Below, one piece after another: positions 20,604 through 38,600 of a stretch of DNA of 42,219 nt; position 1 is the first letter of the stretch, and every line of letters starts with the position of its first letter. The position numbers and the translations under genes are program-made. Where the stretch lies: positions 1-42,219 of IMG/VR virus record IMGVR_UViG_3300031706_000008, one strand, 5' to 3'. Under the pieces are notes generated by a model. The model was given only the letters and a program-made list of their open reading frames with translations. It was not told the DNA's origin and did not search any database. The stretch comes from a virus.

Positions 20604-23600
20604 ATGGCAGAGTTTAAATTAGGTAGAATTAGATTTATATGGAAAGGCGACTGGGCCTTATCTACAGTCTACTACAAAGACGATATAGTACGTAACGGCG
20701 GTAATACATATGTTTGTATCGCGGGTCACACTGCTCCGGCATTGTTTACAGACACACAAGTAACATACTGGAATAAAATTTCCGACGGTGTTGAATGGAA
20801 AGCTGATTGGCTAGGTGATACCTACTATAAAGTAAACGACATTGTAAAATATGGCGGATACTTATATATTGCTAATACTGCTCATCGGTCAAATGCAGAC
20901 GTTGGGCTTGGACTAGAAGATGATCAAAGTAAATGGGACTTATACGCAGAAGGTTTTGATTATAAAGCAGACTGGAATATTTCTACTCGTTATAAAATTA
21001 ATGACATCGCAAAGTATAACGGCACAATATTTATTTGTATAACTCCGCATACTAGTGCAGGAACGCCAGCAGCAGGATTAGAAGCTGATCAAGCCAAATG
21101 GAATATTTTCTCAGAAGGATTTTATTGGACTGACGTATGGGCTATTAACACACGCTATAGAGTAAACGACATTGTACGCTACGGCGGTACCCTTTATGTT
21201 GCAAATACCGGACATAGTAGTTCGGCAACTTTAGCATTAGGATTAGAAGCTGATCAATCTAAATGGGATTACTTACACAAAGGTATTGAATACAGAGCTA
21301 CTCATGCAATAAACACACGCTACAGAATTAATGACGTTGTAAAATATGGCGGCGGCACTTGGATCTGTACTACTCAGCACACAAGTAGTGCAACTAATTT
21401 AGCAGCAGACGAATCTAATTGGGCACAGTTTACTGAAGGTTTAGAATTTGAAGACAGTTGGGCAATCGGCACATCTTACCAGCCAGGTGACTTTGTAACA
21501 TACGGCGGATATAGTTATGTTTCGATTACAAACAACATTGGACTAAAGCCAAGTGATAACGCAGCAGCTTGGGACTTGTTCACAACTGGATTTCGTTGGG
21601 TAGGCGACTATGACGTTAATGCAGCTGACTTAGAATATATCGAAGGCGATGTAGCTCGTGTAGGAGGCTACACATACCTATGTATTCTAAAGCATACATC
21701 ACAACATCCGCCAAGTGCAGTATACTGGCAGAGACTTAACGAAGGTATGGAATGGAAAGGTACTTGGGCCGACGCAACAGAATATGATGCAGGAGACTCT
21801 GTACAACATGGCGTGAACAGCTACATCTGTGTACTTAAACATGCTTCAGACGAAGTTACATTACAAAACAGACCAGATCAAGATACTGACGGCAGCGAAT
21901 GGAATTTATTAGTTGCTGGCGCAGAATCAGGAAACTTAACTACAGCAGGCGATATTGTTTACTATGGCGGCGCTGGTGCAACCAGACTTGGTATCGGCAC
22001 AGCTGGGCAAGTTTTGAAAGTTAATGACGCATCAAATGCTCCGGAATGGACAAGCTTTGGCGCAATTAATAATGTGTTCTACGTAGAAACATCGGGCGGT
22101 GTAGATAGTCCTGCTCCAAGTTATGGTGTTACTTTAGATCGTCCTTGGAAATCAATTCGCTATGCAACTGAACAAGTGCAAGACGGTGCAATCCGTTATA
22201 ACGCTAAAAATCTTTTGCAACGTAATAGAAGTTTCATACAAGACGAAGTAATTGAATATATTGAAGCTATTTATTCAGACACTGCTACAGCTACTACAGC
22301 ATCAACAGATGCTATTACTGTAACAAGTACAGCTTGGTTGGTTGCAAACGAAACAGCAATTAAATTCGCAGGCACAACCTTTGGAAATATTGTTGCAGGT
22401 ACAGAATACTTTGTAAAAACAATTCTTAACGCAACTACATTTACTGTATCATTAACTAAAGGCGGAGCAATAGTTGCCCTAGCAGATGGCACAGGAACAT
22501 CAGCAGTAAGTCTTTCTTATGTACAAGCAACATGCCGTAGAGATACTGGGCAAGTGCTTGATGCAGTTATATGGGATTTAACACATGGTGGAAACGAGCG
22601 TTCAGTAAAAGCAGCAAAGGCATATTTTAATGCAGCTGGTGATACTTATATCGGCGGAGCAAATGCTTCACAGACAGTAGCAGGCTTTGGATATATTGTT
22701 ACAGTTGCAGACGCAGTTATGTCTAATCTTGCTCCTGCAACAGTACGCGGCAGTTTAAATCGTTATACTAACGCTGCATTTATAGAAGAAGCAGATGCAC
22801 TAGCAACTGTAACAACACTAGTAAGTATTGTTACTAGTGCAATTACAGCAGGCAACACAACTGCTGTACCGGCACTACTAAAACCACAACATACTATATT
22901 TGTTAAAACAGGAAACTTTAGCGAAGTATTGCCAATTATTGTTCCTGAAAATACAGCTATTGTTGGAGATGAATTGCGTTCAACACGTATTGGCGCAGCA
23001 GGTGTGTTAACAGGAGCTGCTGATACTCCAAAGTCATTAGATACATACGCTAGAATGGCAGTTATTATGAGTGACATTGTTACTAACGCTGCTGTAACTA
23101 AAACAACAGGAAACGCATTAACTCAAGTAACAACTTCTCCAGCAGGCTCAACAGCAGCAGGCACATTTGCAGCGGAACTTTGGACACAAATAAAAGATTA
23201 TGCTGACTTTGGTGTAAACGGTGCGTCAAGTGACTCTACAGTTCCTGTAACTTACGGAACAAACACTCCAAACACTACAACTGATTATACATATGCTGTA
23301 GAAGCAATTGAAGCAAACAGAGCATTCCTACAAGCAGAAGCTAATGCATATATTGCTAATGCATATCCTTCATATGTATATGACTCAGCAGCATGTGCAA
23401 GAGATATTAGTAGATATATCGATGCTATTAAATATGACTTAATTTATACAGGCAATTATAAATCTTTACTATACGCACGTTATTACAGTAATTCAGTAAT
23501 GGGATCAACTACAGAAGACATGTTCTACATGCGTAACGGCACAGGACTACGTAACTGTACTATAAACGGATTAACAGGAACACTCGGCGGCGCAAACGTA

Positions 23601-25847
23601 TACGGAACTAGACGTCCTACAGCAGGCGCATTTGTAAGTCTTGATCCAGGTTGGGGTCCTGCGCATACTGATGCATGGATTATCAATAAATCACCATACG
23701 TACAAAACGTAACTACATTTGGTACTGCTTGTATTGGACTAAAAGTAGACGGCGACTTACACGCAGGCGGTAACGATAGTATTGTTGCAAACGACTTCAC
23801 ACAGATCATATCAGACGGCATCGGCGCTTGGGTTACTAACTTAGGCAGAGCAGAGCTTGTATCTGTTTTCTCATACTACGGTCATATTGGTTACCTAGCA
23901 GAAAACGGCGGCAAGATTCGTGCTACAAACGGCAACAGTTCGTACGGTGCATTTGGTACGGTAGCTGAAGGCGTTGACGTTACTGAAGTACCAATTACTG
24001 GTAAAGTAACTAACCAATCCTTTGATGCAGTTGTTCATAGTGTATTCACAGACGGCAACAATGTACTAGCATTAGAGTATACAAATGCTGGTAATGCTTA
24101 TACAACAGCAACAGATGCTTTGATAACTATATCAAATATCAGTTCAGCAAACGGCTTGAGAACCACTGGTACATACTATAATGTAGCTGGCTCATCTGCA
24201 GCCGCAGGTGTTGGACAATCGTTTGACGTTATTGTTGACGACCAAGGATTAGCAAGTTTAGTTATTAACAAAGGCGGCAGTGGACATGTAATAGCAGATA
24301 CTATTACAATTGCTGACAGTTTGTTAGGTAGCGGCGGCGCACCTGACTTGACATTTGATGTCTTAACTATTGGCGATGCTACTCGATTCTCTGTAACAGG
24401 TGAAGGATTTGGTGCAGCAGTAGATAATGCTGTTATATCAAACGGTGGCGTATTTGAAGTTAGATTAACTGACCCAAGTGATGATAAAGGCGGTCTAGGA
24501 TTCCTTGATGCACAAAACGTTGCACAGACAGGAACTACTACGCAAATTACAATATCCAATACAGACGGCAGATTAAGTGCTCAATATGTTGGAATGGCAA
24601 TTTACATAACAGCAGGAGTTGGTGCAGGTCAATATGGTTATATTGATACTTACAACAACGGTACAAAGATTGCTACAATTAAAAAGTGTAGCGATGATAG
24701 TGCAGGATGGGATCACATTACTGGAGTAGCAATTGTAGCAGCTCTAAATGATACTAGTAATTATAGTATTGAGCCAAGATTAACGTTTACTTCGCCCCCA
24801 GACAATTTATATGCAAGTACTGCTAAAGGTAGAGCATATGTATTAGACGGCAAAGTTAGTGCTATTACACTATGGGATCCGGGTACTGGATATAATAGTG
24901 CACCAACAATGACAGTTACTGATCCAAACAACACTGTGGAAGTACCGCATACTGTTAGATTTGGTAACGGTGTATTAAAACAGCCTACATGGACTAGTAG
25001 AGGTACAGGATTTGTTACAGCTAGTGCAGAACTAGTCGGAGACGGTTATGCTGATTTATATCAGCCAGGCACATTAATTAGAGTTACTGGATTAACTGCT
25101 GCACCGTTACCTGGTTCAAACATTGAACTTGGTGACATTGCTGGAGAATATTATAAATTAGTTAATGTTAGAGATTTAACAGGAACTGGGCCTTTTGATG
25201 CACAGTTACAAATAAGTCCAGCAATTACTACTAGTCAAGCAGTAGAACACGACGATGATATTACAATGCGTATACGTTATTCGCAAGTACGTCTAACAGG
25301 ACACGATTTCCTAGACATTGGTACTGGTAACTTTGCAGACACTAATTACCCAGGAGTTCCAACTAACCCAATTAATGCTGATAAAGAAACTGTTGTGGGC
25401 GGCGGTGGTAGAGTATTCTACACAAGTACTGACCAAGATGGTAACTTTAGAGTTGGACGCTTATTTAACGTTGAGCAGTCGACTGGTGTTGCAACACTAA
25501 ATGCTGATGCGTTTAACATTAGTGGACTACAAGAATTATCACTAGGTGCTGTCGAGCTTGGTGGAACAGGAGCAACTATTACTGAATTTAGTGTAGACGG
25601 TACGTTTACTGCTAATAGTGATAACGTTGTTCCAACACAAAAAGCAATAAAAACTTATATTGCTTCACAAATTGGTGGCGGCGCTGGTGAACTTAATGTT
25701 AACAGCATTACAGCAGGCTCGGTATTAATTAGTGGGCAAGAAATAACAACGACAACAGGCAATCAGATAAATATAATACAGAAAGTTAATTATACAGGCG
25801 GCATTAGCGGTTCGCCAGTAGCAATGAATTACTTTTTACAACAATAA
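20604..25847 (+). CDS. Giant fibre: eight carbohydrate-binding repeats, beta-helix, nested helical/beta modules (1747 aa)
   Basis: This encodes 1747 residues, a paralogue of the 1567-residue fibre. Its N-terminus (MAEFKLGRIRFIWKGDW) and eight carbohydrate-binding-like repeats (residues ~9-445) match in order. The beta-helix starts with VFYVETSGGVDSPAPSYGVT near residue 492. It then holds extra modules: a helical unit (NRSFIQDEVIEYIE ... CRRDTGQVLDAVIWDLTHGGN) split by a beta module, the strand block IFVKTGNFSEVLPIIVPENT, and a second, unsplit helical unit (NRAFLQAEANAYIANAY ... CARDISRYIDAIKYDL). The propeller of the paralogue is absent. The C-terminal parts again agree (RYSQVRLTGHDFLDIGTGN, GGRVFYTSTDQDGNFRVGR). 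GCGGAG precedes the ATG. It probably recognises host glycans. Confidence 0.87.
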   Translation: MAEFKLGRIRFIWKGDWALSTVYYKDDIVRNGGNTYVCIAGHTAPALFTDTQVTYWNKISDGVEWKADWLGDTYYKVNDIVKYGGYLYIANTAHRSNADVGLGLEDDQSKWDLYAEGFDYKADWNISTRYKINDIAKYNGTIFICITPHTSAGTPAAGLEADQAKWNIFSEGFYWTDVWAINTRYRVNDIVRYGGTLYVANTGHSSSATLALGLEADQSKWDYLHKGIEYRATHAINTRYRINDVVKYGGGTWICTTQHTSSATNLAADESNWAQFTEGLEFEDSWAIGTSYQPGDFVTYGGYSYVSITNNIGLKPSDNAAAWDLFTTGFRWVGDYDVNAADLEYIEGDVARVGGYTYLCILKHTSQHPPSAVYWQRLNEGMEWKGTWADATEYDAGDSVQHGVNSYICVLKHASDEVTLQNRPDQDTDGSEWNLLVAGAESGNLTTAGDIVYYGGAGATRLGIGTAGQVLKVNDASNAPEWTSFGAINNVFYVETSGGVDSPAPSYGVTLDRPWKSIRYATEQVQDGAIRYNAKNLLQRNRSFIQDEVIEYIEAIYSDTATATTASTDAITVTSTAWLVANETAIKFAGTTFGNIVAGTEYFVKTILNATTFTVSLTKGGAIVALADGTGTSAVSLSYVQATCRRDTGQVLDAVIWDLTHGGNERSVKAAKAYFNAAGDTYIGGANASQTVAGFGYIVTVADAVMSNLAPATVRGSLNRYTNAAFIEEADALATVTTLVSIVTSAITAGNTTAVPALLKPQHTIFVKTGNFSEVLPIIVPENTAIVGDELRSTRIGAAGVLTGAADTPKSLDTYARMAVIMSDIVTNAAVTKTTGNALTQVTTSPAGSTAAGTFAAELWTQIKDYADFGVNGASSDSTVPVTYGTNTPNTTTDYTYAVEAIEANRAFLQAEANAYIANAYPSYVYDSAACARDISRYIDAIKYDLIYTGNYKSLLYARYYSNSVMGSTTEDMFYMRNGTGLRNCTINGLTGTLGGANVYGTRRPTAGAFVSLDPGWGPAHTDAWIINKSPYVQNVTTFGTACIGLKVDGDLHAGGNDSIVANDFTQIISDGIGAWVTNLGRAELVSVFSYYGHIGYLAENGGKIRATNGNSSYGAFGTVAEGVDVTEVPITGKVTNQSFDAVVHSVFTDGNNVLALEYTNAGNAYTTATDALITISNISSANGLRTTGTYYNVAGSSAAAGVGQSFDVIVDDQGLASLVINKGGSGHVIADTITIADSLLGSGGAPDLTFDVLTIGDATRFSVTGEGFGAAVDNAVISNGGVFEVRLTDPSDDKGGLGFLDAQNVAQTGTTTQITISNTDGRLSAQYVGMAIYITAGVGAGQYGYIDTYNNGTKIATIKKCSDDSAGWDHITGVAIVAALNDTSNYSIEPRLTFTSPPDNLYASTAKGRAYVLDGKVSAITLWDPGTGYNSAPTMTVTDPNNTVEVPHTVRFGNGVLKQPTWTSRGTGFVTASAELVGDGYADLYQPGTLIRVTGLTAAPLPGSNIELGDIAGEYYKLVNVRDLTGTGPFDAQLQISPAITTSQAVEHDDDITMRIRYSQVRLTGHDFLDIGTGNFADTNYPGVPTNPINADKETVVGGGGRVFYTSTDQDGNFRVGRLFNVEQSTGVATLNADAFNISGLQELSLGAVELGGTGATITEFSVDGTFTANSDNVVPTQKAIKTYIASQIGGGAGELNVNSITAGSVLISGQEITTTTGNQINIIQKVNYTGGISGSPVAMNYFLQQ
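20640..21930 (+). repeat. Array of eight carbohydrate-binding-like repeats (1747-residue fibre)
   Basis: Units open with KGDW, KADW, KADW, TDVW, RATH, EDSW, VGDY and KGTW. Two have lost the second Trp (His or Tyr instead). The 'YxxNDIVxYGGxxYxxxxxH' core is regular. The repeat count equals that of the paralogue. Confidence 0.8.
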
Positions 25848-25862
25848 TGGAGAACACACAAA

Positions 25863-26180
25863 ATGGCCACAGGTAGATTAGCAGCGGCGGATCTTGCGTC
25901 AGGCACAAATACAACAGTTTATACAACACCGGCGGCAATATTTTCCGTGGTAAGTGTAAACATTACGAATAGGGGTAATCAACCTACGGTAATAAATGTT
26001 GCAATTGCTGACTCAGATACACCATCATTAGGGGAATATATTGAGTTCGAATCTGAATTAAACCCAAAAGCAATATTAGAGCGCACTGGTATAGTACTAG
26101 CTGCCACACAAAAGATCGTAGTCCGTTCCTCGCAAGCAAACGTAAGTGTTGTAGCCTTTGGAATTGAGACAACGGCATAA
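25863..26180 (+). CDS. Small beta-rich virion accessory protein (105 aa)
   Basis: This encodes 105 residues; AATGGAGAAC precedes the ATG. The sequence (TTVYTTPAAIFSVVSVNITN, RGNQPTVINVAI, YIEFESELNPKAILERTGIV, QKIVVRSSQANVSVVAFGIE) is a series of strands like an immunoglobulin-type beta-sandwich. It is the third protein of about this size next to fibre genes in the window (7926, 15128). The C-terminus 'L-x-ATQKIVVRSSQxNVSVVAFGIE' is a pattern I have seen in phage fibre-associated proteins, but I know no defined function. The late-promoter octamer of the next gene overlaps its stop codon. Confidence 0.72.
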   Translation: MATGRLAAADLASGTNTTVYTTPAAIFSVVSVNITNRGNQPTVINVAIADSDTPSLGEYIEFESELNPKAILERTGIVLAATQKIVVRSSQANVSVVAFGIETTA

Positions 26181-26183
26181 ATA
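26176..26183 (+). promoter_or_regulatory. Late-promoter-like octamer
   Basis: CATAAATA followed by C lies 24 bases before the ATG at 26208 and overlaps the stop codon of the previous gene. It has one mismatch to the T4 octamer at the first base. Confidence 0.55.
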
Positions 26184-26207
26184 CTAGCAACGAAGGAAGA
26201 GACTCTT

Positions 26208-26534
26208 ATGGGAAGATATATTACAAGCACTTTAAGCTATGCAACTACTGTAGTCACAACTGGCACTAGCTATCAAGCTAAAGTTAATGACAGAGTAATG
26301 TGTACAGCAGGAAGTATAACAATTACACTACCGGCAGTATCAGGATTGCTAGTAGGAGATACTGTACAAATTATCGATGTAACCGGCATTGCTGGCACAA
26401 ATAATATTACAGTAGCAAGAAACGGCTCAGAAATACAAAATGTAGCTGAAAACTTAACAATCGACATCAACAACAGTGCACCAGTATTAGTATACACCGG
26501 TGTTACTTATGGTTGGGTACTTACAGGAAGCTAA
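26208..26534 (+). CDS. Small fibre-type beta protein (108 aa)
   Basis: This encodes 108 residues; GAAGGAAGAG precedes the ATG. The segment YQAKVNDRVMCTAGSITITL, then LLVGDTVQIIDVTG, NNITVARNGSEIQ and LVYTGVTYGWVLTG follows a small beta-rich domain common in phage tail fibres, in which an initial 'V-x-N-x-R-x-x-x-x-x-G-x-I-T-I-T-L-P' strand is followed by 'GDxVxIxDxxG' and 'Y-x-x-x-x-YGW'. As a single-domain protein it may form a fibre tip or a small spike. It begins the transcription unit of the glycine/cysteine-rich adhesin cassette and lies 3 bases before it. Its role is inferred. Confidence 0.72.
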   Translation: MGRYITSTLSYATTVVTTGTSYQAKVNDRVMCTAGSITITLPAVSGLLVGDTVQIIDVTGIAGTNNITVARNGSEIQNVAENLTIDINNSAPVLVYTGVTYGWVLTGS

Positions 26535-26537
26535 TAC

Positions 26538-27287
26538 ATGCCAAGTTTACGCACACTATTATCAGATCTAGCACCGGCAGACGTTGGCAATCCGAACCGT
26601 ATGTTTCACGTATACAACCCAAGCCTCGCGGCGACGTCAGGCGGATGCGCATGCACTTGGACAGTGCCAACTGGCATTACCCGTGTATCATTTGAAATGT
26701 GGGGCGCAGGCGGCGATGGAGGCGGAGCAAGATGTTGTGAGTCATCCGGACCTGGACCCACAAACGGATCTTATGCAATCAAGCATGTTGATACTGTAGC
26801 AGGAAACCAATTTAGAATATGCGCCGGCGGTACAGGATGTGAAGGTTGCTGTTGCGGAATTGTTCCAGCAGCATTTCCAAGTTATATAACAGATATTACT
26901 AATGCTGGTGCCACTATTGGATGTGCTCCAGGCGGATTAGGAGGCTGCAACCAAGCAACCCGAAACAATCATGGCGGACATATTTGTTGTTGGGGAAGAG
27001 AATCATCAACTGGCCTCGGCGACATAGTTATGTCCGGTACCGGAAATATTGGAGTCAAAAATTGTTATTGCTACCAGCACACATATATGATTGTTGCAGG
27101 CGGCTACGGAGCAGATAGAATGACTTCAGCAATTTGTGCTGACTCACACACACAACATGGCAGTAGCATAATGACTAGTTGCCAATCAGGATATGGAGGC
27201 ACTGGGACAATGGGCAGAGCATGCGGTGGCGGCTTCTGTTACGGACAAGCCGGCGGCTTCGGAATAGTTAAAGTGTCATACACCTAA
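26538..27287 (+). CDS. Glycine- and cysteine-rich adhesin-like protein A (249 aa)
   Basis: This encodes 249 residues, starting 3 bases after the previous stop; ACAGGAAGC precedes the ATG. It contains 19 cysteines, including CC and CCC runs, and many glycines. After a short N-terminal part (FHVYNPSL) comes CACTWTVPTGITRVSFEMWG, then AGGDGGG, CC, a 'YAIKHV' strand and FRICAGGTGCEGCCC. The 'WTVP-x-G-x ... EMWGxGGxGGG ... YAxK' frame matches the glycine-rich domain of phage fibre tips (Gly_rich_2-type, compare polyglycine sandwiches of T-even gp38-like adhesins). The C-terminus returns to GYGGTGTMGRACGGGF and GFGIVKVSYT. Two paralogues follow (27964, 28744). A role as receptor-binding tip is inferred. 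The Cys density is unusual for a virion protein made in a reducing cytoplasm. Confidence 0.78.
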   Translation: MPSLRTLLSDLAPADVGNPNRMFHVYNPSLAATSGGCACTWTVPTGITRVSFEMWGAGGDGGGARCCESSGPGPTNGSYAIKHVDTVAGNQFRICAGGTGCEGCCCGIVPAAFPSYITDITNAGATIGCAPGGLGGCNQATRNNHGGHICCWGRESSTGLGDIVMSGTGNIGVKNCYCYQHTYMIVAGGYGADRMTSAICADSHTQHGSSIMTSCQSGYGGTGTMGRACGGGFCYGQAGGFGIVKVSYT

Positions 27288-27300
27288 GAGGAATTTAAAA

Positions 27301-27957
27301 ATGCCAACACCAATTACAAACATAACAAAAGCGTTTACATATAAGATCGCAGACGAAATTTATAGTGCCTCTGGTGCAGCTAATAGAACAGCTGACGCTA
27401 GTTACACAGGACCAGACAGAGTTTGGATTTTTGTAGACGAAACAACAGGAAAATTTAGTTTCGTATCACCAGCACTAACAACTTTAGAAGACGGTGGAGA
27501 AGTTCCAGTTCCAGGCGGACATGTACGTGTTCTAGTTACTGCTGAAGACGATATGCTAATGTTAGCATTACTGAAAGAAGATTGTGTTACATATAATGAC
27601 ACAAGTCAAACAACTGAAGCGTTACCAGGAGACTACGGAACTGTCTCGTTCGACACTAAGCCTGATTTATCAGAAACACATGATTTATCAGAAGCAGTAT
27701 ACAACATTGCAGGTTCTGCATGGGAAGAAAATGATTTCATTGAACCTCCGATTACGTGGGATAATATTATTTCTCATAGAAATAATGCGTTAGCAGCAAG
27801 CGATGGTAAAATCTCAACAGATATGCCTACTTCGGTTAAACAGCCGTGGATTGACTACAGAGCAGCATTGCGTGACGCTCCAGCAGTTTACGGATACGGG
27901 ACAGCAGATGAAACAGTCGCATGGAAAGTTAAACTTCCTGCTCAACCAGGAGAGTAA
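27301..27957 (+). CDS. Tail-fibre assembly chaperone-like protein (218 aa)
   Basis: This encodes 218 residues; AAGAGGAATTT precedes the ATG. The N-terminal part begins ITNITKAFTYKIADEIYSAS, then SYTGPDRVWIFVDETTGKFS. The last ~70 residues contain WDNIISHRNNALAASDGKIS, DMPTSVKQPWIDYRAALRDA and PAVYG. This follows the pattern 'W-x2-I-x2-RNxxL-x2-SD ... W-x-x-YR-x-x-LRD-x-P' of phage tail-fibre assembly chaperones (phage tail APC / caudal assembly family), which help fibre tips fold and often sit just after their client. It is paralogous to the 305-residue protein at 29514 and follows adhesin A. Chaperone function is inferred from pattern and gene order. Confidence 0.72.
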   Translation: MPTPITNITKAFTYKIADEIYSASGAANRTADASYTGPDRVWIFVDETTGKFSFVSPALTTLEDGGEVPVPGGHVRVLVTAEDDMLMLALLKEDCVTYNDTSQTTEALPGDYGTVSFDTKPDLSETHDLSEAVYNIAGSAWEENDFIEPPITWDNIISHRNNALAASDGKISTDMPTSVKQPWIDYRAALRDAPAVYGYGTADETVAWKVKLPAQPGE

Positions 27958-27963
27958 TATAAC

Positions 27964-28728
27964 ATGGCAGGCTTAAGAACATTATTACAAATAGGCGGCA
28001 GCGGCAGCACCTCCATTGACTACAATGAACTGTATATATATAATACAAACAAAACCGCAGTTTCAAATGGCGGCTCCGTGTGCGAGTGGACAGTTCCAAC
28101 TGGAGTTTCTTGGTTCGCTGTAGAATTATGGGGCGGAGGAGGCGGAGGCGCTTCTGCATGCTGTTGTAAACAAGGTAGTGCGCCAGGCGGCTCTGCATCA
28201 TATGCTAGAAAATTTGTAACAGGATTATCAGGCACGGGCGGCGAAGTATATACATTATGTGCAGCAGGTTCAACTGGCTGTAGTCAAAACGCAACTACTG
28301 GTTGTATTGGCTTTCCGTCCTTTGTTTCTGTAAGTGGCGGCGCAGTACAAGTGTGTGCTAGTGGCGGCGGTTCAGGACAATCCAAATGCTACTTCGGCTC
28401 CAATTGTTCATATTCAGGTTGTCCGCAATCACAGTGCGGTAGCTGGACGGGCACCTTTGGAATTTGTGGTACAACTGGCAGTGGTAAAGGTAGTTCTTTC
28501 TGCCACAACAGTTCATGGAACTGGATGCCATCAGCTCCGTATACAGCAGGCGGTAACCGCGGAACTAGAAATCATTGTACTCGTTGTCAAGGTTGTGGTA
28601 TGGGAGGCTATGCACATTGGCCAGGCGGCGGCGGAGCAAGTGTATCCGAACATAGTGGCGCAAATGCCTTTTATGGTGCAGCTGGATCAGGCGGACTAAT
28701 AACAATTTACTACCCAGTTGTATCATAG
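27964..28728 (+). CDS. Glycine- and cysteine-rich adhesin-like protein B (254 aa)
   Basis: This encodes 254 residues; CCAGGAGAG lies 13-15 bases before the ATG. It contains 17 cysteines and many glycines. It shares the frame of protein A: VCEWTVPTGVSWFAVELWGG, GGGGGASACCC, YARKFVTGL, then YTLCAAGSTGC. The middle is variable and Cys/Ser-rich (SKCYFGSNCSYSGCPQSQCG), and the end is HWPGGGGASV, AGSGGLITIYYPVVS. It differs from A and C mostly in the middle, where receptor contacts would be expected. It follows the chaperone-like gene by 6 bases and precedes protein C by 15. Its role as an alternative or additional fibre tip is inferred. Confidence 0.78.
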   Translation: MAGLRTLLQIGGSGSTSIDYNELYIYNTNKTAVSNGGSVCEWTVPTGVSWFAVELWGGGGGGASACCCKQGSAPGGSASYARKFVTGLSGTGGEVYTLCAAGSTGCSQNATTGCIGFPSFVSVSGGAVQVCASGGGSGQSKCYFGSNCSYSGCPQSQCGSWTGTFGICGTTGSGKGSSFCHNSSWNWMPSAPYTAGGNRGTRNHCTRCQGCGMGGYAHWPGGGGASVSEHSGANAFYGAAGSGGLITIYYPVVS

Positions 28729-28743
28729 GAGACATAACACACA

Positions 28744-29499
28744 ATGGCTAATTTAAGAGATTTAACATTTGGATACGGCGAAGGGACAGCAATGTCCCCT
28801 GGCGAATTTACAGTATACAATACCAGCACAACAACAGCGGGCAATGGCGGGCAATGCTGTCTATGGACGGTACCGAATGGCGTATCGTATGCAGTTTTTG
28901 AAATGTGGAGCGGCGGTGGCAGCGGAGACGGCGGATGCTGTTGTATGCAGGGCGGTGGCGCAGGAGCAGGCGGATACGCAATTAAAGCTCGCACCGTTAC
29001 ACCAGGTGAAGGAATAAGAGTTTGTGCAGCAGCTAGTAACTGTTGTCGTCCAAGTCAAGGAAATTTCTGCGGTTGCTGCACATTTGTTTGTAGTGAAAGC
29101 GGCGGCGTTAGCGGACGTTGGGAATCAAAGGTTTGTGGCGGCAGAGGAACGATTCAACCAAATGTTTGTCGTGGCTTTATATCCTGCTATAGTTGCTGTT
29201 CAATGTGCTATTGCTGCGGCGGCATGGCAGAAGATGTTGATCTATCTTTCGGAGGTATAACTGGTACATCTCACAGAACACAACATTGCTTCGATGACGG
29301 ATATCAAGTAGCTGCAAATGCACCAATGACAGGTGGCGGCATTAGAATGGGCTTTAACGGATGTTGCGCACGTGGCGGCGGCCAAGAAGAGATGGGACTT
29401 TTCCCAGGAGGCGGCGGCTTTAGTGGACAAGCGTTCGGAGGCGGATGCTGTTGTAGTTCAGCAGGTGCAGGCGGTATGGTTTACGTTGTATACTATTAA
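28744..29499 (+). CDS. Glycine- and cysteine-rich adhesin-like protein C (251 aa)
   Basis: This encodes 251 residues with 26 cysteines, about one residue in ten, including runs CCC and CYSCCSMCYCC. ATAGGAGACAT precedes the ATG. The conserved frame is GQCCLWTVPNGVSYAVFEMW, SGGGSGDGGCCC, YAIKARTVTPGEGIRVCAA. The C-terminal part has GGGGFSGQAFGGGCCCSSAG and GMVYVVYY. The middle is again the most divergent from A and B. It is followed by the second chaperone-like gene (29514), giving the arrangement tip-chaperone-tip-tip-chaperone. A receptor-tip role is inferred; a metal-binding or disulphide-rich fold is another possibility. Confidence 0.78.
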   Translation: MANLRDLTFGYGEGTAMSPGEFTVYNTSTTTAGNGGQCCLWTVPNGVSYAVFEMWSGGGSGDGGCCCMQGGGAGAGGYAIKARTVTPGEGIRVCAAASNCCRPSQGNFCGCCTFVCSESGGVSGRWESKVCGGRGTIQPNVCRGFISCYSCCSMCYCCGGMAEDVDLSFGGITGTSHRTQHCFDDGYQVAANAPMTGGGIRMGFNGCCARGGGQEEMGLFPGGGGFSGQAFGGGCCCSSAGAGGMVYVVYY

Positions 29500-29513
29500 T
29501 AGGAAATAAATTT

Positions 29514-30431
29514 ATGACAAATATTACAAAAGAGTTTACATACGATTTAGCAGATGAACAATATCATCAAACTGCCCATAATCGAGATACTGCAACGTCT
29601 GTATATACCGGCCCAGCATATATGAATTTAGTAGTTGATTCAAATACTAATAAACTAACTGGCGCAACAATTGCAGATACTGAATACGAAGATTACAATA
29701 ACGAAGAAGACGGATACTATGCAGTTAGAGTAAATTGCGATACGGATACATTAATGTGCGCAATTATGCCAGGCGGCACCGATTCTGATGCTACTGCAAG
29801 TATATCAGAAGATGTACCAGGATCTAGTATTCCGTATATTAAAGATGATCCGACGATGCCAGACCACACCTACGAGTTAACAGAAATACAATATGATAGA
29901 CCTAATGGCACTTGGGTAACTCCTATGCCTTGGAAGCAGCCATATATAACGTGGGAAATTGAATTACAATGGCGAAATAATGCGCTAGAATGCGCCGATA
30001 GAACAGCATCAGATGATTTACCGTCATCACTTCTTAATGGAGTAACTGCATATAAACAATATCTTAGAGATTATCCGCAGACATTTGGGGCAACTTTTGG
30101 TATTACTGTTGCAACAGCTGGAACAGGTTATGTAGTAGGTGATCGTATGCTAATAAGTGATCCTGCATATAAAAACGGCCAATCGGCAGCAGATATACTA
30201 GTTACAGTTAGAGCAGTTGCAGATGGCACTGGGGCAATTACCGCAGTTACTAAATCTGACACAAGAGCATATAGCTATCACCCACAAGCTGGCACATATA
30301 ATAATGTATTTTACACTACTAGTTCAGCAGGCACCGGAGCAACATTTAATCTATCAAAAGTAGCAACTGTAGATCCGTGGAAGATTACACCTCTAGAGAA
30401 TCCTTTGGAACCTAGCTACGTAGCACCATAG
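29514..30431 (+). CDS. Tail-fibre assembly chaperone-like protein with inserted beta module (305 aa)
   Basis: This encodes 305 residues; AATAGGAAATAAATTT precedes the ATG. The N-terminus (MTNITKEFTYDLADEQYHQT, VYTGPAYMNLVVDSNTNKLT) and the block WEIELQWRNNALECADRTAS, then YKQYLRDYPQTFG match the 218-residue protein at 27301. After YPQTFG comes an extra ~95 residues, about 200-293, including GTGYVVGDRMLISDPAYKNG and ADILVTVRAVADGTGAITAV. Such 'GTGY-x-VGD' modules are repeated in the giant fibre at 35616. The sequence then resumes with DPWKITPLENPLEPSY, corresponding to WKVKLPAQP in the 218-residue protein. It ends the adhesin cassette, before a terminator. A chaperone role is inferred. Confidence 0.72.
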   Translation: MTNITKEFTYDLADEQYHQTAHNRDTATSVYTGPAYMNLVVDSNTNKLTGATIADTEYEDYNNEEDGYYAVRVNCDTDTLMCAIMPGGTDSDATASISEDVPGSSIPYIKDDPTMPDHTYELTEIQYDRPNGTWVTPMPWKQPYITWEIELQWRNNALECADRTASDDLPSSLLNGVTAYKQYLRDYPQTFGATFGITVATAGTGYVVGDRMLISDPAYKNGQSAADILVTVRAVADGTGAITAVTKSDTRAYSYHPQAGTYNNVFYTTSSAGTGATFNLSKVATVDPWKITPLENPLEPSYVAP

Positions 30432-30525: not shown

Positions 30526-30573
30526 CTTTATAATAACTAATTAACATGTAGTTTAACACTTATAGGAATAATG

Positions 30574-31536
30574 ATGACAAGAAACAAAGCATTTTTTATT
30601 AACGGCGGCGCCGGTCGTGTAGTATGCTCCATCCCTGCATTAGAGAAATTTGCAGAAGAAAATCCTGACAATGATTTTATTATTGTTTGTGAAGGCAGCA
30701 CAGAATTTTATAAGGGACATCCACAGCTTCATGCTAAAGCATATGATCACTGGCATAAAAACTTATTTGAAGATAAGTTAAAAGACATGGATTTAGTAAG
30801 CCCGGAGCCTTATAGAGTTTGGGAATATTATAATCAGAAAGCAAGCTTGTCACAAGCATATGATATTGCTATAAACGATAAAGGAATAAGAGACTTACCT
30901 AGACCTCAAATTAAACTTAGTAAGCAAGAAAGAATTGTAGGGCAGCAGGTAGTTAATGATGTTAAAGAGAAAACTGGCAAAAAGAAAACAATTGTTATGC
31001 AGCCATTTGGTCGTGGAATAGTAGAAGATAAAGGAGTAATAACTGACTTTAGCGGAAGAAGTATTGAGCCTGATTCATTAATTAGCCTATTAAAAGTGTT
31101 ATCTAAAGATTATGCAATTATTTTTATGGGAGAAATTGCATTTGAATTTGCAAAGCACGGTATTTCTGCATCAATTGCTGTGCCTCAAAATATCGATTTA
31201 CGAGCATGGTCAGCTATAATAGCTCAAGCAGATCATTTCTTAGGATGCGACAGTGTTGGACAGCATCTTGCATATGCATTTGACAAAACAGCAACTATCG
31301 TAATTGGAAGTACGTTTAAAGAAAATGTATCATATCCAGACGATGATAAATTTACAATTCTAGATATGGGCGAAGGCGCAAGGGTATATAGTCCTATTAG
31401 GATTACTATAGATGAATATTCAGATCGTGTTAACGAAGGCATAATGTCGATGAATACGGCGATAGAAGAAGTGATTATTAAAGAAGTTAATGCAGCACTA
31501 GCAGATGTTCCTGAACCAATTGCGGATGCAACTTAA
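30574..31536 (+). CDS. GT9/heptosyltransferase-like glycosyltransferase (320 aa)
   Basis: This encodes 320 residues from ATG 30574. AGGA is 6 bases away, against 3 from the adjacent ATG at 30571, the same arrangement as in gp23. The N-terminus (AFFINGGAGRVVCSIPALEK) resembles the GT9 (ADP-heptose:LPS heptosyltransferase) opening 'GxGDxxxxTPAL'. The C-terminal half has IDLRAWSAIIAQADHFLGCD then SVGQHLAYAFDKTATIVIGS, like the GT9 donor-site region 'DTGxxHLAxAxxxPxVxLFG'. The middle is a linker with Lys-rich stretches. Where heptosyltransferases have the catalytic Asp after Gly, this protein has Arg15, so activity or mechanism may differ. It starts the operon with the SGNH-like and carbamoyltransferase genes, consistent with glycan modification of a virion or host surface. 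Confidence 0.7.
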   Translation: MTRNKAFFINGGAGRVVCSIPALEKFAEENPDNDFIIVCEGSTEFYKGHPQLHAKAYDHWHKNLFEDKLKDMDLVSPEPYRVWEYYNQKASLSQAYDIAINDKGIRDLPRPQIKLSKQERIVGQQVVNDVKEKTGKKKTIVMQPFGRGIVEDKGVITDFSGRSIEPDSLISLLKVLSKDYAIIFMGEIAFEFAKHGISASIAVPQNIDLRAWSAIIAQADHFLGCDSVGQHLAYAFDKTATIVIGSTFKENVSYPDDDKFTILDMGEGARVYSPIRITIDEYSDRVNEGIMSMNTAIEEVIIKEVNAALADVPEPIADAT

Positions 31537-31539
31537 TAC

Positions 31540-32433
31540 ATGTCTAGGTTATTTACATTTGGATGTAGCTTTACTAAGTATACGTGGCCAATGTGGAGTG
31601 ATATCTTCGGTTTAGAATTTGACCACTTTGAAAACTGGGGAGTGTCAGGCGGAGGCAACTCCTGTATTGCTAATCGAGTAACAGAATGTCTTGTAAAAAA
31701 TGATATAACTCCTGATGATATTATTGTTGTACAGTGGTCTAGTCACATACGTAATGATTATCATACCTTTAAATACTTAACAGAAGGACCTGATAAAGAA
31801 GCAGGTTGGAAAACTAAAGGTAGTATTTTCAATTATCTAAATGCCGAAAAGTATAACAAAAAATGGTTAGATACGTTTTTTGATGAAAACTCTTATGTAA
31901 TGCTTTCATTAAATGCGATACATTCTACACAACTTTCATTACAAGCTACAGGATGTAAATGGGCAATGACGTCTATTGGCGACTTTAGTAAATTAGGATC
32001 AGACTTTATAGTTGATCCTGCATCATACGCAGAAACCCCAAATTATCCAGTAGACCTATGGAACGACAAGGATCTGTTTCTTCCATATAAAGATAAAATA
32101 TGGAATGATAAATTTATCTGGGTAGACCCAATTGGTCCGTTTGCATGGAGTCGAATGGACGAGATGTATTGGTGGACCGATGCAAAATATCCAGATGATA
32201 AAACTATACCTCTTTGGTGCGACCCGCACCCATCAGTTAATCTAAGTATAGACTGGCTATATAATAAGTTAAAACCTGCACTAGGACTAGATAATACAAA
32301 ACTTACTAGCCAGCAACTAGAATGGGCTAAAGAATGTATTATAATAAAAGAACAAAACTCTGGCTTAGATCCATTCGGCGATCTTGCTAGTAAGACATTA
32401 AAAAACTACACAAAATCTTACAGAGGATATTAA
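31540..32433 (+). CDS. SGNH-hydrolase-like protein (297 aa)
   Basis: This encodes 297 residues, starting 3 bases after the previous stop, without a clear ribosome-binding site, so probably coupled. RLFTFGCSFTKYTWPMW places a 'GCSFT' nucleophile-type motif with Ser10 at the N-terminus, and ENWGVSGGGNSCIANRV looks like the second conserved (Gly) block. IVVQWSSHIRN follows, and DPHPS at residues 228-232 supplies an Asp and His as in the last block of SGNH/GDSL esterases and acyltransferases. The Asp-x-His spacing is shorter than the usual Asp-x-x-His. Similar 'FGCSFT' proteins occur in marine phage genomes near carbohydrate genes. A role in adding or removing an ester or acetyl group on a glycan is inferred. 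Trp and Asp are unusually frequent. Confidence 0.65.
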   Translation: MSRLFTFGCSFTKYTWPMWSDIFGLEFDHFENWGVSGGGNSCIANRVTECLVKNDITPDDIIVVQWSSHIRNDYHTFKYLTEGPDKEAGWKTKGSIFNYLNAEKYNKKWLDTFFDENSYVMLSLNAIHSTQLSLQATGCKWAMTSIGDFSKLGSDFIVDPASYAETPNYPVDLWNDKDLFLPYKDKIWNDKFIWVDPIGPFAWSRMDEMYWWTDAKYPDDKTIPLWCDPHPSVNLSIDWLYNKLKPALGLDNTKLTSQQLEWAKECIIIKEQNSGLDPFGDLASKTLKNYTKSYRGY

Positions 32434-32435
32434 AA

Positions 32436-34235
32436 ATGAGCAATAAGAAACCATTATGGATTGCAGGCATAGCAAGAGGGCATAACGCAGGCGTTTGCTT
32501 GATGAAAGATAATGAAATTATCTTTTCAATGGAAGAAGAACGCTTGACACGAAAAAAATACGACGGCGGTCCTCTTGCTAGTATGTTAAAGATTTTAGAA
32601 TATACTAATACGCTAGATTTTCTAGTAGTGTCTCATACTACTCCGTTAAGTACCGCTGGACAAATAGATTATAGTGGTGAAGATATTTATTCAGGACTAG
32701 CAAGAAAGTTAGGACTAGTTAAAGATTTACCACTTAATGAAAGGAACCAGCATCCTCAAGTTATTGATATGGCAATGTTTCATCATAAGATGCATGCTGG
32801 ATTAGCATTTTATCGTAGCGGCTTTGAAGAAGCAGTTGCATTAATTGTAGACGGAGCTGGAACATTTTTTCCAATACAGATCAACGGCGAAGACATGACA
32901 GTGTGGGAAACTGAAAGTATTTATAAATGCGAATATCCAGCAGAAATTAAAACTTTGCACAAGACAATGGGCACTAAAGACATGCTAGTTGCAACATACA
33001 TTGAAAATTTTAAAGGTGACATGTGGGAAGAAAACTCCGAATTCAATCTAAGTATTGGAGAACGTGCCGGTATTGTTAAAGCGTATGAAGCTGTAACAGA
33101 GTACTGTGGATGGTCAAGTATCGAAGCTGGTAAGACAATGGGTCTATTTCCATACGGCAAACCAGATGATTCTTTCCCGGATATAATGGATAAAAATGAT
33201 CTGCCTGTTCCTATTACTAACAGAAATTTAATTGTTCCTCGTTATCCAAACGGTGCAGTTGTAAACTCTGCAATGTACAATACATTGAATGAGCATACTA
33301 GTCATGATGTAACACTATTGCAAAATAGAAGAGACATGGCGTATGCTGTGCAAACTGAAAGTCAACAAGCAGTTGTTGATTTAATTAGACATTCTGTAAA
33401 ACTTAGCGGATGCAACAATGTTGTAATCAGCGGCGGCTACGGGTTAAATTGTGTTGCTAATTATTTTTATCTCGAAGCACTTAAAGACGAAGGTATTAAC
33501 ATCTATGTAGAACCTATATCAAATGATGGAGGAACAGCAATGGGCGCAGCACTTCTCTGGTATCATACTATAACTGAAGATGCTACCGTTCGGCCTAGAG
33601 AAAATGATGTATACTTAGGACCTAAGTTAAGTTACACGCATAATGAAATTGATAACATTGCTGCAAAATATAATGCCGTAGTTACTGATGCAACACATGC
33701 AGATGTTATCGAATTAATGACTAGTAAAAACATTGTTGCTAACTTCCAAGGACGTTCAGAGAATGGGCCTCGTGCATTAGGCAACAGAAGCTTAATGTTT
33801 GATCCTACATTTAAAGACGGCAAAGACTTTGTTAACGAAATTAAAGATAGAGAATACTTTAGACCGTTTGCAGGATCTATTCTAGCTGAAGATGTACATG
33901 AATGGTTTGATCTACGTGGTATGGAAGATTCACCTACAATGATGTATGCTGTAAATTGTCAGCCAGGTATTGAAGAAAAGATTCCTGCTATTATTCACAT
34001 AGATGGAACCTGCAGAATTCAAACAGTTACCCGTGAACAGAATCCTCATTACTACGATATCATTAAAGCGTTTAAAGAAAAGACAGGATGTCCAATTATC
34101 TTTAATACTAGCTTTAACTTAGGCGGCGAACCTCTAGTTGAGACACTAGATGATGCTATTCGTACACTAGAAGACTGTAAAATTGAATATTTGTATCTTC
34201 CAGAACATGGTAAGTTAATTACTGTGAAAAACTGA
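32436..34235 (+). CDS. Carbamoyltransferase of the NodU/CmcH (TobZ) family (599 aa)
   Basis: This encodes 599 residues; CAGAGGATATT precedes the ATG. This family transfers a carbamoyl group from carbamoyl phosphate (via an adenylate) to a sugar or small-molecule hydroxyl. The N-terminal ASKHA/Kae1-like part has IAGIARGHNAGVCLMKD, FSMEEERLTRKKYDGGP, FHHKMHAGLAFYRSGF (His116, His117, His120, expected metal ligands) and ALIVDGAGTF (Asp139). VVISGGYGLNCVAN is the following nucleotide-binding block. The C-terminal part has FQGRSENGPRALGNRSL at about residue 437, and CPIIFNTSFNLGGEPLV. Length and all main motifs fit a complete, functional enzyme. It ends the glycan-modification operon, suggesting carbamoylation of a sugar attached to fibres or to the host surface. 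The acceptor is not deducible from the sequence. Confidence 0.9.
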   Translation: MSNKKPLWIAGIARGHNAGVCLMKDNEIIFSMEEERLTRKKYDGGPLASMLKILEYTNTLDFLVVSHTTPLSTAGQIDYSGEDIYSGLARKLGLVKDLPLNERNQHPQVIDMAMFHHKMHAGLAFYRSGFEEAVALIVDGAGTFFPIQINGEDMTVWETESIYKCEYPAEIKTLHKTMGTKDMLVATYIENFKGDMWEENSEFNLSIGERAGIVKAYEAVTEYCGWSSIEAGKTMGLFPYGKPDDSFPDIMDKNDLPVPITNRNLIVPRYPNGAVVNSAMYNTLNEHTSHDVTLLQNRRDMAYAVQTESQQAVVDLIRHSVKLSGCNNVVISGGYGLNCVANYFYLEALKDEGINIYVEPISNDGGTAMGAALLWYHTITEDATVRPRENDVYLGPKLSYTHNEIDNIAAKYNAVVTDATHADVIELMTSKNIVANFQGRSENGPRALGNRSLMFDPTFKDGKDFVNEIKDREYFRPFAGSILAEDVHEWFDLRGMEDSPTMMYAVNCQPGIEEKIPAIIHIDGTCRIQTVTREQNPHYYDIIKAFKEKTGCPIIFNTSFNLGGEPLVETLDDAIRTLEDCKIEYLYLPEHGKLITVKN

Positions 34236-35612: not shown

Positions 35613-35615
35613 GAT

Positions 35616-38600
35616 ATGGCAAAGACGCAAATAAAGAATTATATATTTAAACCTGGTATCGGAGCAAACGATAACCTTTTCCCAAACGCATATAGCTTAT
35701 TAAATTCTAATAAAGCATACATACAAAAAGAAGCTGGTGCATACATAACTAATAAGATAGCAAACGCTGCACAATATACTCCTACAGGAGCTGCGTATGC
35801 GCCCGCTACAGGTGTATTGACTATAACGATAGGCACACACAACTTTAATGTTGGAGATGCTCTGTTAATAGCACAAGCAGGCATTACATTTAGATGCGAG
35901 CTTGACGGCAATGCAACAACACATCCTTATCCAAGAGTAACTGATCCAGTCTATCAAAAAGCTATTCCAATTACAGCTATTACATCAACAAGTGTTACTG
36001 TGAATGTTGGCATAAGTTCAGATACTAGTGTACATACATTTGATTCTGCAACTACAAATGCAGTTAGTGATGTATTTTATAACTATACAAATACTAGTGA
36101 AGCAAAATGCGAACGAGATATTGGATATGTAGTCGATTCATACTTAAACGATTTACGCTACGGCGGTAATGAAAAATTATACAATAATATAAAATATTAC
36201 TGGGATCAAACTGTTGCACAAGTTGACGGAGACCGTGGTCCAGAAATTGCTACACATAACTTTATTGGTCGATTAATTAAAGATTATATTTTTGCAAATA
36301 CTGCATACTCGTCATTACAAACATTAGAACTACAAGTAATTGATGCAACTAAGACAGCAGAAACAGCAACGTACACCCCAACGGGCGCAACATATAAACC
36401 TGATACTGGATTGATGACTATTACACTCACTGGGCACGATCTTACAGTAGGAAGTTCAATTGTTATTGCTCCGGGCGGGATAACATTTACATGTGCATTA
36501 GATGCTAATGCAACATTACATCCTTATCCAAGAGGAACAGGTGTTCCTAATGCATCTGGAAGAGACCCGTTTTACAGAACATCTGCTACAATAACAGCAG
36601 TAACAACAAATACTGTTACTATTAAGGTAGGTATAAGTTCAGATACTAGTATACATACATTCGATAGTGCAGTTGCAGGATCAGTTTCAGCAAGTGCAGC
36701 AGTTATTATTGACACATTTGCATATGCTACTACAACAGTTATTGCAAACGGTCTTACTTTCCTACCAACTAAAGTTTATACAGGAGTAGGAACACTTAAA
36801 TGGCAAGGGCGTTATAGCGTAGACGAAATACTACTAATTACAAATGCTTCAAGAAGTGAGGTTATATATAACTTTACTAACGCTGCTACAGGCGGTAGTG
36901 TTACAGTTCAGGACACTGGCACAGATACAGACTTTTTAAAATACCTAGAAACAACTGATGGCGTAACTACATTTACAATAAATTATGACACTAGAACACA
37001 TGCAGCAACTGACGATATACAGTTATTCATAGAAGAAAAAGAAGTTAGAACACGCCCATACGATTTTGGTACAGACGCTATTGAACGTCCTCGTGCTGCA
37101 CTTCCAGTATCGATGCTTGACGCTGACTTTGAGTACGGACTACAGCCTACTAAGTGGAGTGCTATTGGCACAATGCGCGGCTATCCAAGTGTATACGAAA
37201 TTCCAGGAACTGATGCAAGTGTGCAAAAAGTTGTTACAGATGCAAGTTTAAGTGAACCAACACAAATATTTACCGGCGCAGTTACAAATGATGGAACTGA
37301 AAACTGGACGTTTAGTAGTGCTACGCATAGAAATGGCAATTTAACTGGAGCAGATCCAGCAATTAGTATAATTGAGGGCGACACTTTAACTATTACTAAC
37401 AATGCAGGATCAGGACATCCTTTCTACTTTAAGACAGCAGCAGGCGCTGGAACTGGCAACCAAGTTACAAATGTTACTAACAATGGTAGCGTAAATGCAG
37501 CTGATACAATATCTTGGACTACACAACCAGGTGATGCTGGAACATATTATTATGGTTGTAGTAATCATGCTGCTATGGGCGGAACTATTACTGTACTAGC
37601 AAATAATCTCGGCACTGGTATTGGCCAATCATTAATTACTGTTACAACAGTTGGCGCACACGGATTTTCTTCAGGTACTCCTGTAAGTTTAAAAGCACTA
37701 GAAAATAGTATTGCAGGCGCTTCACGAGCAGAAGGCACGTTTATTATCGTAAATGTACCTAGTACAAGTACGTTCCAATACTTTGCTAAAGCAAAAGTTG
37801 GTACAACAGCAGGACAACTACTTTCAACTGGATATACACAGTTAAGGGAAGCAGGATTTTATACAGGAGCATCAATTGGTTCACCAGAATTTGCAATAGC
37901 AAGTAACGGTAGCTCAGGAACAATGTTTACGCAATTAGCTGTATTAGCAGGCGAAAACGTAATTCCATATGATGGACAAGCACCAGAGATTGGGTCTCCA
38001 TTATCGCAAGCAAGTATTCCTTTAGGTTCTCAAGTAACTGGTATTGTTGACCAAAGCGACGGCGGCGGCACATATCTAACACCAGCGACATCTGGTATCA
38101 CTGCTGCCGGCCAAAACCAAATGACATTTAAAAATGTAGCTGGAGTTGTAGACAACTTAGCAGTTGATCGAGGCGATGGTTATGCTATATATATTACGGC
38201 AGTTGCAGGAGAAACTGCAACATTTAACGATAATTTTACAAGTAGTATTGCAGGTAACAGACAAGCATATGGTCAATTATTTCCGACTAATATAAACCCA
38301 ACTGGAACTTTTGCAGAATTTGATATTTCATATGCTGGCGATTCTAGCGGACTTTACGTAATCGATGCTATTGAAAATGATGGAATAAATTACGAAATTG
38401 GCGATAAAATATCAATTCTAGGTACAGCGTTAGGCGGCGCCACACCTGCAAATGACGCAATCATTACAGTTAATTCGCTCGGCAGTGCAAACTCAATTGC
38501 TACTGCATCTATTTCCGGAGTACATTTTAATCAGGATATTTATTTACCAGCACAAACCGCAACATTTACTGGCGGAATTGGCACTGGCGCTACATTTGAT

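Follow-up and report, generated by a model that had tools for sequence, protein, structure and literature searches.

Cysteine-saturated phage adhesins beside a GT9-like glycosyltransferase: a possible case of sugar-modified attachment tips

Among the described systems closest to the locus reported here is the tail fibre of cyanophage Pam3, whose gp24 and gp25 (PDB 7YPX, 7YFW; PMC9608196) combine a TNF-like fold with glycine-rich loops, and in which a dedicated chaperone gene lies immediately downstream of the fibre gene; both features recur in our locus. The gp38 adhesin of Salmonella phage S16 and the T2-type adhesins share a glycine-rich lattice with variable tip loops (PMC9608196), and Agrobacterium phage Milano resembles our phage in having virion proteins enriched in cysteine. 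In the bacterial autotransporter heptosyltransferase systems, TibC/AAH with AIDA-I/TibA, the gene of a GT9-type enzyme adjoins the adhesin gene, as it does here, and TibC heptosylates serines of adhesins (PMC4358343).

The window, by which we mean the whole stretch of 42,219 nucleotides analysed (IMG/VR virus record IMGVR_UViG_3300031706_000008), contains the following features:

20604..25847, plus strand: long tail fibre with eight CBM_5_12 modules, upstream of the tips (from its domains; phrog_9851)
25863..26534, plus strand: two small fibre-related genes in the interval between fibre and tips (phrog_11338, phrog_31104)
26538..27287, plus strand: adhesin A, a TNF-like/glycine-rich putative tip protein, 249 aa, 19 Cys
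27301..27957, plus strand: fibre assembly chaperone 1, 218 aa (PF16778 Phage_tail_APC, phrog_9740)
27964..28728, plus strand: adhesin B, 254 aa, 17 Cys (PF21722 Gly_rich_2, phrog_4205)
28744..29499, plus strand: adhesin C, 251 aa, 26 Cys (Pam3 fibre fold)
29514..30431, plus strand: fibre assembly chaperone 2, 305 aa, paralogous to chaperone 1 and longer by a C-terminal domain
30571..31536, plus strand: GT9-like (heptosyltransferase-fold) glycosyltransferase (GT), candidate adhesin modifier (AlphaFold, Foldseek)
31540..32433, plus strand: conserved neighbour gene with an FGCSFT start, GDSL/SGNH-like by eye only
32436..34235, plus strand: NodU-type carbamoyltransferase (PF16861, PF02543)

The five genes at 26538-30431 are closely packed on the plus strand. 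A preliminary description saw in them three cysteine-rich adhesins and two assembly-chaperone-like genes in the order tip, chaperone, tip, tip, chaperone, with which the open reading frames and coordinates agree, and its cysteine counts proved exact on recounting. Its figure of one cysteine in ten residues is right for C (10.4%) but too high for A (7.6%) and B (6.7%); in the remaining listed forward genes of the window the share is 0-2.0%. The adhesins are paralogues (38% and 35% identity to C) with a short common start, MxxLRxLL, and alignment reproduces the shared frame with divergent middles that had been proposed, namely WTVPxGV..E.W..GG...CC...YAxK, and yields 43 invariant columns. All three match PHROG 4205, a family without a described function; against PF21722 (cut-off 24.3 bits) B scores 26.7, A 17.5 and C 10.6 bits. 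Of the chaperones, the first passes PF16778 (27.9 bits, cut-off 26.6) and the second falls under it (21.1 bits), but the latter is 34% identical to the former (E 7e-24), so that the chaperone-like assignment stands for both. The long tail fibre is likely the carrier of A, B and C.

The AlphaFold model of C (pLDDT 87.7) matches the Pam3 fibre gp24 in Foldseek with E values of 6.9e-7 and 1.5e-5, probability 1.00 and TM 0.53. It was fold comparison alone that gave Pam3: a sequence search against solved structures returned no match, and hhalign of the A/B/C family against gp24 alone was not significant (4.6% probability). Together with the PF21722 match of B, the fold of C upholds the earlier view of glycine-rich adhesin tips. 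The differences from the described systems are nevertheless considerable. Pam3 gp24 has one cysteine and 63 glycines, against 26 cysteines in C; it carries a long helical shaft in a single gene, whereas the tips here are three genes, and ahead of its first strand C has only a helix at residues 4-7 instead of an N-terminal helical shaft for baseplate docking. Neither a GT nor a carbamoyltransferase is present in the Pam3 genome. S16 gp38, which has a different middle domain and no known cysteine saturation, does not appear in the list of the top 50 fold matches for C. Milano structural proteins contain 2.1% cysteine, compared with 7-10% here, and their bonds are distributed over the tail (PMC10811340).

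Among 144 aligned relatives, 12 columns are cysteine in at least 79%, and Cys94 of C is cysteine in all of them, while the cysteines outside this core turn over fast in number and position. In complete loci of the A/B/C kind that were picked via another gene, every locus again has 19-36 cysteines per protein; the saturation is therefore not due to chance. Since both the columns and the high counts are conserved, the doubt raised in the preliminary description, that the cysteines might vary freely in position or number, is not borne out.

The preliminary description overlooked the gene that best predicts cysteine saturation, which is the GT. Its AlphaFold model (pLDDT 88.8) finds its best solved Foldseek matches in the GT9 structure 3tov (E 1.4e-10, TM 0.64-0.68) and also in WaaC, WaaF and TibC (TibC structures, E about 4e-9). 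By sequence it is a putative distant GT9 member, scoring 11.2 bits against Pfam Glyco_transf_9, below the 22-bit cut-off. The four-cysteine iron finger and the N-terminal beta-barrel of TibC (PMC4358343) are missing: there are three cysteines in the whole GT, and the model opens directly with a Rossmann strand.

Our first relatives had been found with cysteine-containing patterns, which biases the search, and the survey was redone from the GT gene, blind to cysteine; we call an open reading frame cysteine-saturated from 10 Cys per 150 aa upwards. Of 50,697 phage records, 55 contain the GT gene, and two distant GT members used as queries retrieve the same set minus one weak member. A cysteine-saturated tail protein lies beside the GT in all 14 distinct phages inspected, and among GT-fetched loci a cysteine-saturated reading frame adjoins in 42 of 43 informative, 56 of 56, and 9 of 9; one GT locus (L123) is a fragment without a cysteine-saturated gene. 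In control phages without the GT a single reading frame of 254 was saturated, and that one was an edge artefact. The linkage is thus nearly perfect, although an association is no proof of GT action on cysteine.

None of the cysteine-saturated proteins of the 56 loci (0/56) is detectably homologous to A, B or C. The cysteine-rich proteins beside the GT fall into 22 sequence clusters, unrelated N4-like Vibrio phages included, and in every cluster cysteine is enriched (20-fold overall) and lysine, glutamate, aspartate and leucine are depleted. Serine is mildly enriched too, the spacings CC and CxC are a little more frequent than expected, and histidine is in slight excess adjacent to cysteine; the flanks of the cysteines are nearly flat, with no sequon. 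In the N4-like phages the cysteines belong to repeat segments, ACTCGINCGNEAKNQ for example. There the GT stands alone within the tail cluster, about 9 bp ahead of the cysteine-rich tail gene in the Vibrio phages, and since no heptose or carbamoyl genes accompany it, the tail protein is its obvious target. A cysteine-saturated tail beside the GT also occurs in an Aeromonas hydrophila phage, so that the marine setting is nothing special.

Marine versions of these loci add the carbamoyltransferase and often ADP-heptose genes. In the window both carbamoyltransferase domains score above their cut-offs (PF16861 194.7 bits, PF02543 88.7 bits). GT and carbamoyltransferase occur together in 11 of 11 cysteine-rich records versus 0 of 4 cysteine-poor controls, and ADP-heptose genes in 11 of 17 records. 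Both ADP-heptose genes and carbamoyltransferase are missing from four phages, N4-like or of Aeromonas. The gene at 31540..32433 is found in the majority of related loci and gave no match in PHROG and NCBIfam searches. psbA was not present in 16 IMG/VR contigs of such phages. Virion proteomes are published for S-SM1, S-PM2 and Syn9 (PMC3037559), but those of S-SM1 and Syn9 cannot serve as direct virion evidence, because cysteine-rich tips were found neither in the whole S-SM1 genome nor in the first 50 kb of Syn9 (fibre genes included).

The reading we prefer, although we would not give it quite an even chance, is that a GT9-like enzyme dedicated to the task adds sugar to adhesin tips folded by the chaperones, most probably at cysteine, and that a carbamoyl cap follows. 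A, B and C would be three obligate, co-inherited receptor-binding tips of the tail fibre of a T4-superfamily phage, folded by the two Tfa/gp25-like chaperones. Their cysteines would be the substrate, the GT adding a sugar most probably to the cysteine sulphur; fold and context suggest that this sugar may be heptose, from ADP-heptose, and the carbamoyltransferase would cap it to give a sugar-coated tip. Glycocins are small bacteriocins with one or two modified sites and a glycosyltransferase of a different family. Two of them, sublancin and pallidocin, offer a precedent for the linkage, since enzymatic S-linked sugars on cysteine do exist in glycocins (PMC6405829); TibC is a precedent for heptose on adhesins. 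Known GT9 protein heptosyltransferases use serine and not cysteine as acceptor, which counts against S-linkage. The flat cysteine flanks, the mild serine enrichment, the missing TibC finger and barrel, and locus L123 weigh against the reading as well.

The main rival, which we regard as possible but rather unlikely, is that the tips are stapled by disulphides: the cysteines would keep their free thiols inside the cell and, once it lyses, fix the glycine lattice and the loops in place, with GT and carbamoyltransferase otherwise employed or decorating serine or threonine. Indeed, Pam3 fibres of the same fold join the baseplate via disulphides (PMC11821841) and in Milano disulphides form a network throughout the virion (PMC10811340); the nearly invariant core cysteines and the slight excess of CC and CxC fit as well, as do the CCC runs of C, which lie, in the model, at the tips of the first and last glycine loops, within short strands. 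However, cysteine gain and loss on the tree shows little pairing, Cys-Cys covariation gave no convincing pairs, odd counts are as frequent as even ones, and neither parity nor variance of cysteine number carries a signal of pairing or of a fixed total. The repeat-segment cysteines of the N4-like phages are awkward for disulphides, and the GT linkage would be left unexplained.

It is also conceivable, though in our opinion improbable, that GT, carbamoyltransferase and heptose genes serve to remodel the host envelope, for instance as a defence against superinfection, and are only passengers alongside the tail genes. The last two are typical of LPS clusters, and P-SSM2 and S-CAM1 carry them adjoining the tips. 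Yet cyanobacterial LPS generally lacks heptose, that of marine Synechococcus included (PMC4515613), the solitary GT of the N4-like tail clusters does not fit, and cysteine saturation is not accounted for. Binding of metal or an iron-sulphur centre, which the cysteine density and the small surplus of CxC and of neighbouring histidine might suggest, we consider very improbable, given that no fixed four-cysteine motif runs across the families and that non-core cysteines change quickly in number and place. That the tips bind host thiols covalently, or exchange disulphides with a receptor, would suit CCC runs at loop tips, which are the receptor-binding tips in Pam3, but this needs far fewer cysteines and leaves the GT linkage aside, and we give it hardly any credence.

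Equally faint is the chance that A, B and C, being paralogues whose middles diverge, are interchangeable tips, switched or added for host range as the preliminary description proposed: all three are present in each case within the window's lineage, gene order is conserved in every complete relative from it, divergence is correlated (Spearman 0.68-0.78), and the relatives form position-specific clades (clade A set off by a 97% branch) with no sign of swapping between positions, so that they are a fixed set and not a switchable cassette.

Glycosylated tips, if they exist, need not be restricted to this lineage. We offer as a speculative and somewhat doubtful extension that S-glycosylated adhesins occur phage-wide: a GT9-like enzyme would put sugar on many tip cysteines, the sugar being probably heptose, with a carbamoyl group in marine T4-like phages; some 20 tip families that seem unrelated would have become cysteine-saturated independently as its substrate, and phages of heptose-less hosts would carry their own ADP-heptose genes. 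The tip fold was already known, while cysteine saturation and its link to a GT family are not described in the searchable literature, and no virus is known with a sugar on the sulphur of its attachment tips. If the sugar sits on cysteine, both the viral protein modification and the GT9 acceptor would be new. In cyanophages such as P-SSM2, tip glycosylation would lend carbamoyltransferase and heptose genes, long unexplained, a role other than in LPS. If the tips are glycosylated, attachment of abundant marine phages would use a phage-added sugar, which bears on adsorption, resistance and host range.

The window, a virus fragment of 42 kb, encodes a gp23-like capsid protein whose nearest matches are in jumbo phages of the T4 superfamily (68.5% to that of Vibrio phage 2.275.O). 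The five open reading frames of the tip cassette lie in the positions and order originally proposed, with two further genes downstream:

26538-27287, +, Cys-rich tip protein A
27301-27957, +, first assembly chaperone
27964-28728, +, Cys-rich tip protein B
28744-29499, +, Cys-rich tip protein C
29514-30431, +, second assembly chaperone
30571-31536, +, GT9-like glycosyltransferase (GT)
32436-34235, +, NodU-type carbamoyltransferase

The cysteine richness claimed in the preliminary description is confirmed: in about 250 residues each, A has 19 (7.6%), B 17 (6.7%) and C 26 (10.4%), versus 0-2.0% in the window's other listed forward genes. The second chaperone (also in L011, L024 and L113) carries a C-terminal extension of highly variable length, the whole protein having 205-496 residues. 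In 35613-42219 all closed reading frames are of at most 109 codons, because a long one (about 2200 codons) overruns the contig end.

All three tips match PHROG 4205, and B scores above the cut-off of the Pfam glycine-rich model. The AlphaFold model of C, built from 144 aligned relatives, is confident (pLDDT 87.7, pTM 0.86); its best match among solved structures is the Pam3 tail fibre (E 6.9e-7). The tail tip of Bxb1 ranks next, and ALK gives a weaker match through its TNF-like/glycine domain. The Pam3 protein with this fold is a torch-like trimer that binds the receptor, probably through its distal glycine loops, and the chaperone encoded next to it helps it fold (PMC9608196). In C, residues 65-67 and 235-237 are CCC runs; they lie in short strands flanked by GGGG stretches in the first and last loops, and the topology of the model would place them at the equivalent of this distal end. 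Pam3 gp24 has one cysteine and the related glycine-rich Syn9 gp38 two; therefore the fold does not require them.

IMG/VR yielded 306 relatives. In an alignment of 144 relatives, twelve columns hold cysteine in at least 79%, and Cys94 is found in all. Cysteines at many other positions were gained and lost repeatedly along the tree. Among orthologues cysteine ranks with the best conserved residues. Neither gain and loss on the tree nor the parity and variance of cysteine number gave a Cys-Cys pairing signal.

By sequence the GT is a distant GT9 member, and its AlphaFold model (pLDDT 88.8) matches GT9 3tov, WaaC, WaaF and TibC. Phages AG-345-O18 and AG-345-P14 have the same GT, but quite different Cys-saturated proteins in place of the tips (758 residues with 73 cysteines, 290 with 31, 282 with 26); the P14 protein and that of L147, a close homologue of the 290-residue O18 protein, lack profile similarity to the tips. 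We therefore surveyed loci fetched via the GT alone for any reading frame with at least 10 cysteines per 150 residues (see table).

Table. Loci with a Cys-saturated reading frame; many are mutually related, so that counts are not independent events.
Window's GT as query: 42/47; in four of five misses the GT lies no more than 1.6 kb from a contig edge, leaving L123 as the sole informative miss
GT profile search of genome contigs: 9/9 (two near-duplicates)
P14 GT as query: 56/56 new loci, all with carbamoyltransferase, none with detected homology to A, B or C
Isolates inspected: 14/14 distinct phages (GT family in 55 of 50,697 phage records)
GT-less controls (Syn9, S-SM1, Pam3, Vibrio 2.275): 1/254 reading frames, a reverse-frame one at an edge

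Among the fitting isolates are Aeromonas phage HJ05 and N4-like phages of Vibrio, which are unrelated. Both GT and carbamoyltransferase occur in 11/11 Cys-rich records, and neither was found in the searched records of the controls. BLAST groups the Cys-rich proteins into 22 clusters, between which distant homology may stay hidden; all 22 are enriched in cysteine (20-fold overall) and poor in Lys, Glu, Asp and Leu. Besides tips like those of the window, Cys-saturated tail proteins of about 20 sequence clusters, up to 1156 residues with 134 cysteines, adjoin the GT gene in L195-L250, L144, L145, L147 and L191, in L195-L250 with the carbamoyltransferase too. Loci L184-L192 come from metagenome-assembled genomes labelled Neomarinimicrobiota, Euryarchaeota, Actinomycetota and others; these are probably phage contigs binned wrongly, and the labels should not be taken for hosts.

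In N4-like phages the GT lies about 9 bp upstream of a Cys-rich tail gene, and a search of four genomes, from phages of Vibrio and Aeromonas, found neither ADP-heptose genes nor carbamoyltransferase, which makes the tail protein the most direct target. Vibrio, Aeromonas and other Gram-negative hosts supply ADP-heptose. Three N4-like Vibrio phage tail proteins directly 3' of the GT gene have dense cysteines within Ala/Asn-rich repeat stretches (STACTCGINCGNEAKNQ):

L181:7745-10027
L170:8747-14017
L180:7742-10519

We infer that the GT would attach a sugar to the adjoining Cys-rich tail or tip protein. There is a precedent in TibC, an enzyme of GT9 type that adds heptose to the adhesin of a neighbouring gene (PMC4358343), although TibC's iron finger and barrel are missing from the phage GT. 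The link may be S-linked, on tip cysteines, since cysteine is the strongest feature common to otherwise unrelated tips. Ser/Thr glycosylation with structural disulphides may apply instead, because a sequon around cysteine is lacking and serine is mildly enriched in the Cys-rich proteins.

ADP-heptose genes occur in 11/17 records of marine-lineage phages, P-SSM2 included; heptose is absent from marine Synechococcus LPS (PMC4515613). They lie downstream of the tip cassette in P-SSM2 (L143:11915-14513) and in the contigs behind L013, L034, L115, L117 and L127; several other large contigs (L061, L065, L064, L051, L077) show none. A 2OG-Fe(II)/prolyl-hydroxylase-like gene, possibly for further tip modification, lies between chaperone and GT in two loci:

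L091:10204-10836, Sf-FS3
L092:9448-10107, S-SSM7

The suggestion that tips are switched within the cassette found no support and is unlikely, given the fixed gene order, position-specific tree groups and correlated divergence. The five-gene order is intact in all fetched complete cassettes of the window's lineage, where, in a tree of 129 tips from 43 genomes, one branch sets all of A apart, another does so for C, and B requires two changes. A, B and C diverge in a correlated manner (Spearman 0.68-0.78), and the two chaperones follow much the same pattern as the tips. The MxxLRxLL start common to all three suggests, from sequence, one docking site. The three proteins may together make up one tip, conceivably as an A:B:C heterotrimer, since TNF-like domains trimerise. 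Cyanophage triads often stem from separate within-genome triplication: in L128 and L129 the tips are nearer each other inside one genome than to those of other genomes, so either three copies were reached more than once or copies were homogenised. P-SSM2 and AG-345-F15 have two tips, not three.

Glycosylation of the tips may be the mechanism; the cysteine puzzle itself is genuine, extends well beyond the window and is linked to a glycosyltransferase.
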